Source of the DNA: Deltaproteobacteria bacterium
Lineage (GTDB): Bacteria; Desulfobacterota; B13-G15; RBG-16-54-18
DNA length: 33,415 nucleotides
Assembly (NCBI GenBank): GCA_019308925.1
Contig: JAFDHG010000015.1
Coordinates: 1-33,415 of the forward strand
Reading direction: 5' to 3'
Shown in pieces: positions 17,937 to 20,015 of the stretch. The position numbers were made by a program, and so were the translations under genes. The notes below the pieces were generated by a model. The model saw only the letters and a list, made by a program, of their open reading frames with translations, had not been told where the DNA came from and did no database searches. Each line of letters opens with the position of its first letter. The stretch's first letter is position 1.

Positions 17937-19283
17937 ATGTTTATCAGGCTCTTTTTTCTTTTTGTCACCATTTTTGCGGGACTATTTATCTACATCTCTT
18001 ACCTAAACCCTTTGAGTGTCAAATTTCAATATCTCAAGGGGAGCTATCTGGATACCTCCCTCTCCATCTTGCTCATAAGCTCCTTCTTTGTGGGGACCTT
18101 GATAACCTTCCTCATCTATCTGGCCAAGGACGTCAGGAGGAGCTTTAAAGAGCGCAAAGATAAAAAGGAGAGGGAACAACTATGGCAGAGGTTTTACCTG
18201 GCCACAGACGCCCTGTTTAAAGGTAACTTGCCCAAGGCCGAGAAACAGATCTTGGCGTACCTGAAGAAGAGGCCTGATGACCCCGAGGCCTACCTAAAAC
18301 TTGCCGAGATCCATCAAAAAGGGGCAAGGCCCCAGGAGGCCATTGAAACCCTAAAAAAGGCCAAGGACTTAAAGAAGGACCAACTTGAGATCCTCTTCAA
18401 GGAGGCCCAGATCTACAAGGAGACTCAGGAATCCCCTGGGGCCATCAAGGCCCTCCAAGAGATCATCACCCTTTATCCTTCCAACCTGGAGGCGATGCGG
18501 GAGTTGAGGGACATCTATATCGATGAAAGGGAATGGGACCTGGCATTGGAACTAGAGAGAAAGATCATCAAGATGAGCCCAGAGGAGGAGATCGAACGGG
18601 AAAGGAAGCTTCAACATGGTCTGAGATATGAGCACGCCAGGCTTATGGCGGAAAGGGGGGAGGAAGATAAGGGGATAAAGGAGTTGAAGGAGATCATCAA
18701 GGAGGATCATTCCTTTAGCCCACCCCAGGTCCTGCTAGGAGAATTACTGCGCCGCACCGGGGAGATCAAAGAGGCTATCAAGGTCTGGCAAAAGGGGTTT
18801 GAATGGAGCCGTGAGATCATCTTTTTGAACAAATTGGAGGACCTCTACCTCTCCCAAGAAGACCCCCGGGGGATTATCCACCTCTATCTGGAGGCCATGG
18901 AGAAGAACCCCGATAACATCGTCATCCCCTTCTTCTACGCCCGGCTCTGCCTGCGACTGGAGATGATCGATGAGGCCCTGGGGAGGTTAAAGGAGATGGG
19001 GGCAACCCTCTCCGATCACCCCTCTTATCACTATTTGTTGGCCGAGGTATATTCCCATCGAGCCGACTATGAACAGGCGGCAGAAGAATATCGGAAGGGG
19101 CTTGAACTGGAGGGGGGAGTCCATATCCCCTACCGCTGTACTAGTTGCCAGAAGGAGGTCAATGACTGGCTCCCCTCCTGCCCGAAGTGCGGCCAGTGGG
19201 GTACTTTTGTCGTATGCACCCAAGAGGAGATCAAGGTGCCCCTTTCTCCCCTCTCCTCTCAGTTGATGGCCTGGGATTTTTAA
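17937..19283 (+). CDS. LapA-LapB fusion: envelope TPR protein with rubredoxin-like end
   Basis: 448 aa. N-terminal LapA-like (DUF1049) part: two membrane helices (about 1-20 and 43-63) joined by SYLNPLSVKFQYLKGS, then a basic stretch. TPR repeats span about 85-390. The C-terminus has YRCTSC...SCPKCGQWG (from about residue 399), the rubredoxin-like metal knuckle of LapB (YciM). In E. coli LapA and LapB are separate inner-membrane proteins that adapt FtsH to degrade LpxC and so control LPS synthesis. Here both are in one chain, implying a Gram-negative envelope with LPS regulation. comF starts directly after the TAA. Confidence 0.88.
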   Translation: MFIRLFFLFVTIFAGLFIYISYLNPLSVKFQYLKGSYLDTSLSILLISSFFVGTLITFLIYLAKDVRRSFKERKDKKEREQLWQRFYLATDALFKGNLPKAEKQILAYLKKRPDDPEAYLKLAEIHQKGARPQEAIETLKKAKDLKKDQLEILFKEAQIYKETQESPGAIKALQEIITLYPSNLEAMRELRDIYIDEREWDLALELERKIIKMSPEEEIERERKLQHGLRYEHARLMAERGEEDKGIKELKEIIKEDHSFSPPQVLLGELLRRTGEIKEAIKVWQKGFEWSREIIFLNKLEDLYLSQEDPRGIIHLYLEAMEKNPDNIVIPFFYARLCLRLEMIDEALGRLKEMGATLSDHPSYHYLLAEVYSHRADYEQAAEEYRKGLELEGGVHIPYRCTSCQKEVNDWLPSCPKCGQWGTFVVCTQEEIKVPLSPLSSQLMAWDF

Positions 19284-20015
19284 GTGGGGCTCTATCCAAC
19301 CCTTCAGTGGCTTTTGAACCTCATCTTTCCACCAGTTTGACCCATCTGCCAAATCCCCCTCGGCGGAAAGGGGGAAGACCTCCTCATATGCCCAGATTGT
19401 CAAAAGGACATAAGGCCCATATACCCCCCCTATTGCCCCCGCTGTGGCCTCCCCTTCTCCTTGAAGGATGAGGAGGTCCACCTCTGCAGCCGCTGCCTTA
19501 GGGGGAGATGGCATTTCGAGGTCCATCGCTCCTGCGGCCTCTATGAAGGGGCGTTAAAGGAGGCAATACATAGGTTCAAATATCTGCATGAATTCCCCCT
19601 CTTGAGGGTCTTTGGGGACTTACTGTACCCAACCCTCCAAACCCTCTCCCGGGATTACCCGGTGGATTTGATCGTCCCCGTACCCCTCCATATCCAGAGG
19701 TTGAGGGAAAGGGGGTTCAACCAGGCACTCCTCCTGGCCAGGGAACTGAGCAAAAGGACGGGGATCCCTTATCCGGAAAGGGCACTGAAAAAGATCAAAA
19801 ATACCCCCTTTCAGACCACCCTCAAGGGTAAGGAGAGGAGAAAAAACGTAAAGGGGGCCTTTCATGTGGACAAAAATGAAGAAATAGAGGGGAAATCCAT
19901 CTTGCTGGTGGACGATGTCTACACCACAGGGGCCACAGTCAACGAGTGCGCCCGCACCCTGCTGGATGGGGGGGCCAAGAGTGTGGCTGTTTTGACCGTG
20001 GCCAGGGCGATATGA
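19284..20015 (+). CDS. comF: ComF-family phosphoribosyltransferase with an in-frame TGA
   Basis: The frame begins at GTG 19284, right after the TAA of the previous gene, reads LQWLLNLIFPPV, meets TGA at 19338-19340, and goes on without another stop to 20015. After the TGA come PIC, ICPDC, YCPRCG and LCSRC, so the family's four-knuckle zinc ribbon is complete except that its first Cys is the TGA. The PRTase domain follows with VDLIVPVPLH, RERGFNQALLLA and the PRPP loop ILLVDDVYTTGAT. ComF proteins act in DNA uptake and recombination. Either this is selenocysteine, a nonsense mutation or read error, or translation restarts (for example TTG 19461), giving a 184-residue protein without most of the ribbon. 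Confidence 0.8.
19354..19375 (+). promoter_or_regulatory. Hairpin after the comF TGA, possible bacterial SECIS
   Basis: UCCCCCU (19354-19360) pairs with AGGGGGA (19369-19375), 8-nt loop cggcggaa beginning 21 nt after the TGA, with a G in its second position. Distance and G agree with what is known of bacterial SECIS elements, but there is no bulged U in the stem, and G/C runs are common in this genome. Confidence 0.25.

Follow-up and report, generated by a model that had tools for sequence, protein, structure and literature searches.

A predicted selenoprotein form of ComF with selenocysteine at the first zinc-ribbon position

Does a TGA codon inside the zinc-ribbon region of a comF-like gene act as a stop, reflect a fault in the sequence, or specify selenocysteine (Sec)? 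The question arises from the window, by which we mean the whole stretch of 33,415 nucleotides analysed here, contig 15 of a deltaproteobacterial genome (G000; 2.40 Mb, 99% complete). The locus was compared across a family sample of eight species, one per genus (G000-G007, with G000 being the window's own genome), and the named close relatives are the Deltaproteobacteria MAGs bin116 (CP070817.1, G005) and RBG_16_54_18 (G002).

The comF-like gene and its product

The gene occupies positions 19284..20015 of the forward strand, starts with GTG and stops with TGA, and its product of 243 amino acids, one predicted Sec included, combines a ribbon region with a phosphoribosyltransferase (PRTase). The frame reads VGLYPTLQWLLNLIFPPV-TGA-PICQIPLGGKGEDLLICPDC and continues up to the TGA stop at 20013-20015, and the internal TGA, the predicted Sec codon, specifies residue 19 (19338..19340, forward strand). 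An earlier note, made from the letters of this DNA, had placed an in-frame TGA at the first zinc-ribbon Cys of ComF, with the frame open on both sides and the other ribbon cysteines intact. It was right on each point, as the TGA falls in that alignment column, the frame runs from the GTG at 19284 through the final stop, and all seven other ribbon Cys codons (22, 36, 39, 51, 54, 68 and 71; 19347..19496, forward strand) are present. In the readthrough product, Pfam recognized a double zinc ribbon (DZR_2; residues 10-72, E = 1.8e-14) and, further on, a phosphoribosyltransferase domain (Pribosyltran; residues 178-241), and the C-terminal PRTase carries the DDVYTTGAT motif of the PRPP loop. With N-terminal zinc ribbons and a C-terminal PRTase bearing this loop, the gene belongs to the ComF architecture. 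The AlphaFold model of the product (mean pLDDT 92.9) found its best PDB match in H. pylori ComF (7p0h, E = 1.3e-6) in a fold search; a sequence search against the PDB with the same product did not recover ComFC and matched PRTases instead. Homologues returned by a tblastn search of plasmids with comF were all below 60% identity.

Directly upstream lies a gene for a LapB-like TPR protein carrying a Cys4 ribbon at its C-terminus (17937..19283, forward strand), and the TAA stop of this gene adjoins the comF GTG (19281-19286). This abutment is retained in most family members, which suggests that translation of the two genes may be coupled. A codon-score scan of the window for more genes with an in-frame TGA gave nothing convincing, and since the scan missed comF itself as well, its silence means little.

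Conservation of the TGA codon, selection and decoding machinery

Within the family, codon 19 was TGA in four genera (G000, G003, G005 and G007), TGT in G006, and TGC in G001, G002 and G004; TGC was also present in G009 and G039, two genomes outside the eight. The three other TGA copies shared 80, 77 and 70% protein identity with the window ComF. When TGA was taken as Cys, all eight ribbon positions (19, 22, 36, 39, 51, 54, 68 and 71) were invariant across 45 aligned homologues, with the first ribbon ligand encoded by TGA rather than a Cys codon in the four genomes and the remaining seven ligands being Cys. Neither a second in-frame stop nor a frameshift was detected in any of the four TGA copies, and a profile search of 395 genomes of the phylum showed internal stops in the same four genomes only, among the matches listed (the stronger ones, fewer than half). 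No further TGA at codon 19 was observed among 80 named loci of other species, a set that includes G005 again as L036, together with loci of other families; nearly all of the loci from other species and families had Cys at this codon, and some distant N-termini were aligned too short to read. The alignment of comF from relatives, which the earlier note had proposed as a check, thus returned a TGA common to three other genera and not a uniform TGC or TGT. Such a putative exchange of Sec and Cys at codon 19 is the pattern by which selenoproteins are predicted, and the retention of TGA in four genera, which far exceeds chance, bears the main weight of the evidence when set against the hairpin alone.

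In trees of the flanking genes, the four TGA genomes formed one clade (99/100) and probably represent one evolutionary event. A single Cys-to-Sec change would be the simplest account, because more distant ComF proteins carry Cys; as the ComF tree places no firm root among the TGA copies, an alternative in which Sec was present at the family base and was reversed once is possible.

The earlier note had named the sel genes as a further check, and the window's genome was found to encode SelA (E = 1.5e-164), SelB (399.7 bits, cut-off 242.25 bits), tRNA-Sec with anticodon UCA (79.4 bits) and SelD. Two selD genes were identified in G000 (G000:C22:130-1053 and G000:C3:63912-64748), both with an in-frame TGA; such a selD also occurs in G003, in G007 and in four further family genomes, the TGA being located at GAGU, the classical, known Sec site of selD. 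Two molybdopterin-oxidoreductase genes with an in-frame TGA, presumably formate dehydrogenases, were present in each of G000 and G003, and these genes and selD serve as positive controls. Another molybdopterin-oxidoreductase match in G000 (G000:C22:4624-6036) contains an internal TAA, not TGA, and is either a pseudogene or an assembly error. Both tRNA-Sec(UCA) and SelA were also present in G003 and G007. G005 (CP070817.1), a single contig of 1.09 Mb, has selA along with the TGA-bearing comF; a search of this assembly for tRNA-Sec and selD found neither, and because it was scored as only 80% complete, we tentatively read the two as missing sequence.

Were the TGA a true stop, an 18-codon leader would be followed by a downstream restart giving a shorter ComF without the first ribbon. 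An in-frame TTG is available at 19461, and a product reduced to the second ribbon and the PRTase would look like H. pylori ComFC, which is shorter and has a single finger (PMC9005727). This reading, however, is at odds with the selection acting on the frame: pN/pS over the 18 codons 5′ of the TGA was 0.50 in the four TGA copies and 0.33 in the Cys copies, over the 52 codons 3′ of the TGA it was 0.34 in the TGA copies compared to 0.37 in the Cys relatives with their intact frame, and over the rest of comF it was 0.26 and 0.23, respectively. The similarity of these values suggests that the first ribbon is maintained as protein in both groups, with amino-acid selection acting on codons 1-18 as well as on the 52 codons 3′ of the TGA, Cys22, Cys36 and Cys39 among them, which counts against a true stop with restart and leaves it highly improbable. 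Slighter still is the chance that a near-cognate or suppressor tRNA reads UGA as Cys or Trp without Sec. UGA is followed by C in all four copies, which is a leaky context, but tRNA-Sec is the sole tRNA with a UCA anticodon among the tRNAs found in G000 (this anticodon is absent from the other 41, tRNA-Cys having GCA and tRNA-Trp having CCA), and a suppressor tRNA or code change was rejected on this ground; moreover, the homologues have Cys at codon 19, for which Sec is the usual substitute, and the same gene ends normally at TGA. A one-base nonsense mutation, recent and leaving a pseudogene, or a sequencing error, which the earlier note had held to be simpler, is scarcely credible even though TGA is one base from TGC and TGT and the genomes are mostly metagenome assemblies, since the identical codon in four separately assembled genera (the window's and three others), with no other stop or frameshift, makes a read error untenable, and the sequence 3′ of the TGA is under purifying selection.

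We thus regard it as very probable, on sequence comparison, that the product of the comF-like gene is a ComF selenoprotein with Sec at residue 19. The suggestion of the earlier note that the TGA fits a selenocysteine codon gains support from its conservation, the sel genes, selection and the Cys/TGA exchange.

Candidate SECIS elements downstream of the UGA

A UCCCCCU/AGGGGGA hairpin with its loop 21 nt after the TGA had also been described in the earlier note, and it is indeed there as a candidate SECIS (S1; UCCCCCU-CGGCGGAA-AGGGGGA; 19354..19375, forward strand), with 20 nt between the TGA and the loop and the loop starting at the 21st nt. In G000, S1 consists of 7 bp closing an 8-nt loop, CGGCGGAA. 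The bSECIS model specifies a loop of 3-9 nt, a stem of 4-16 bp and a spacing of 16-37 nt, together with a G in the first two loop bases and an energy of at most -7.5 kcal/mol (PMC13188914). These constraints were satisfied by S1 of G000 (-11.9 kcal/mol), G005 (-10.0 kcal/mol) and G007 (-11.4 kcal/mol), in which the distance from UGA to loop was always 20 nt and GG lay close to the loop start, while S1 of G003 had 5 bp and -6.7 kcal/mol and missed the energy cut-off. Within the window, a hairpin passing the model followed 286 of 5907 codons (~4.8%), and at a chance pass rate of about 5% per codon the hairpin by itself is weak evidence. An identical 20-nt UGA-to-loop spacing, with a GGA loop, is seen in the selD hairpins of these genomes, and this common spacing favours S1 as the SECIS.

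A competing fold (S2; CCC/GGG plus UCUGCC/GGCGGA; 19341..19372, forward strand) starts right after the UGA and was preferred by RNAalifold as the consensus of the four TGA copies. Paired cells amounted to 95.5% for S2 versus 85.7% for S1 in these four sequences, which are too few to decide between the folds, and in the same four S2 had one pair altered on both sides compared to zero compensatory changes in S1. The loop spacing of S2 is 10-12 nt, under the published 16-37 nt, and a fold of lower energy than S1 exists in G000, G003 and G005. Conservation of the hairpin, on which the earlier note had set weight, therefore holds in part: S1 was found in all four TGA copies, but it is short in G003 and S2 matches or surpasses it in conservation, so that the SECIS would be S1 or S2, with the exact element only partly supported.

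The comF gene of G006 (G006:C50:124655-125377, L009, minus strand) has TGT at codon 19 and yet carries an S1-type hairpin 20 nt downstream, with an energy of -9.0 to -10.3 kcal/mol. This hairpin is either a precursor that made it possible for Cys at this codon to be replaced by Sec, or a remnant of a Sec since lost, and remnants of the latter kind have been reported from FdhA and from a HesB-like protein (PMC1794560).

Predicted role of the Sec residue and comparison with known systems

We infer Sec insertion, the choice of SECIS fold and the role of selenium along the following lines. When a ribosome encounters the UGA at codon 19 of the comF mRNA, the hairpin just 3′ of it would recruit SelB and Sec-tRNA-Sec(UCA), Sec would be inserted at the UGA, and translation would run on to the normal stop. 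The residue would then replace the first zinc-ribbon Cys (U-P-I-C...C-P-D-C), where Sec19 would most likely either bind the zinc of the first ribbon or form a UxxC redox couple with Cys22 able to release that zinc; Sec19 and Cys22 could form a selenenylsulfide. It is a tentative and rather doubtful proposal that Sec, as a Zn ligand paired with Cys22, might turn the first ribbon into a redox switch that depends on selenium and controls DNA uptake, and just as tentatively, Sec would in such a switch be used for the structure and control of a metal site instead of catalysis. A zinc-ligand position is atypical for Sec, an unusual placement that speaks against Sec-ComF. ComEC was present in all eight family genomes, which makes a role of the predicted Sec-ComF in DNA uptake or handling possible.

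H. pylori ComFC (7P0H) resembles the window ComF in its zinc finger and PRTase fold, but it has one finger, in which four Cys (C3, C6, C15 and C18) bind zinc and which the protein needs to import DNA and to associate with the membrane (PMC9005727), whereas the window ComF has two ribbons with the predicted Sec in the first; the other ComF proteins compared have Cys at that position. Judging by the distance to the following strand, the H. pylori finger would correspond to the second ribbon of the window ComF, and the first ribbon (predicted Sec19, Cys22, Cys36 and Cys39) is without a solved counterpart in the compared structure. UxxC selenoproteins such as thioredoxin, glutaredoxin and GrdB are similar in having UGA in place of a Cys codon, Cys homologues, a downstream hairpin and the UxxC spacing (PMC13188914), but they belong to the thiol oxidoreductases or to related groups of redox proteins, whereas ComF is a zinc-ribbon PRTase with no redox activity known. 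SelD shares with Sec-ComF the host genomes, the decoding machinery and the 20-nt distance from UGA to loop, and differs in its catalytic Sec within an enzyme, its longer SECIS stem and its GGA loop. FmdB is a small zinc-ribbon family. The catalogue of 119 families lists a putative regulatory selenoprotein of the FmdB family (TIGR02605), predicted with a UxxU motif (PMC13188914), which provides a precedent for Sec in a ribbon; unlike the window ComF, it is an unrelated small protein with two Sec and no PRTase domain.

ComF is absent from the text of the 2026 review with that catalogue of prokaryotic selenoprotein families (PMC13188914), and no ComF selenoprotein was found in the deep-Sep paper or in other open literature on prokaryotic selenium use; within the open literature examined, Sec-ComF would be a previously unreported selenoprotein family. 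If true, this family, represented by a zinc-ribbon protein of DNA uptake, would stand apart from most selenoproteins, which are thioredoxin-like proteins or redox enzymes, and would offer a natural test of whether Sec can bind zinc in place of Cys. Since gene-finding programs would cut comF off at the TGA or open a new frame there, further Sec-ComF genes may be hidden. The closely related Sec and Cys versions of ComF, with and without the hairpin, would also lend themselves to work on how Sec codons arise from Cys codons.
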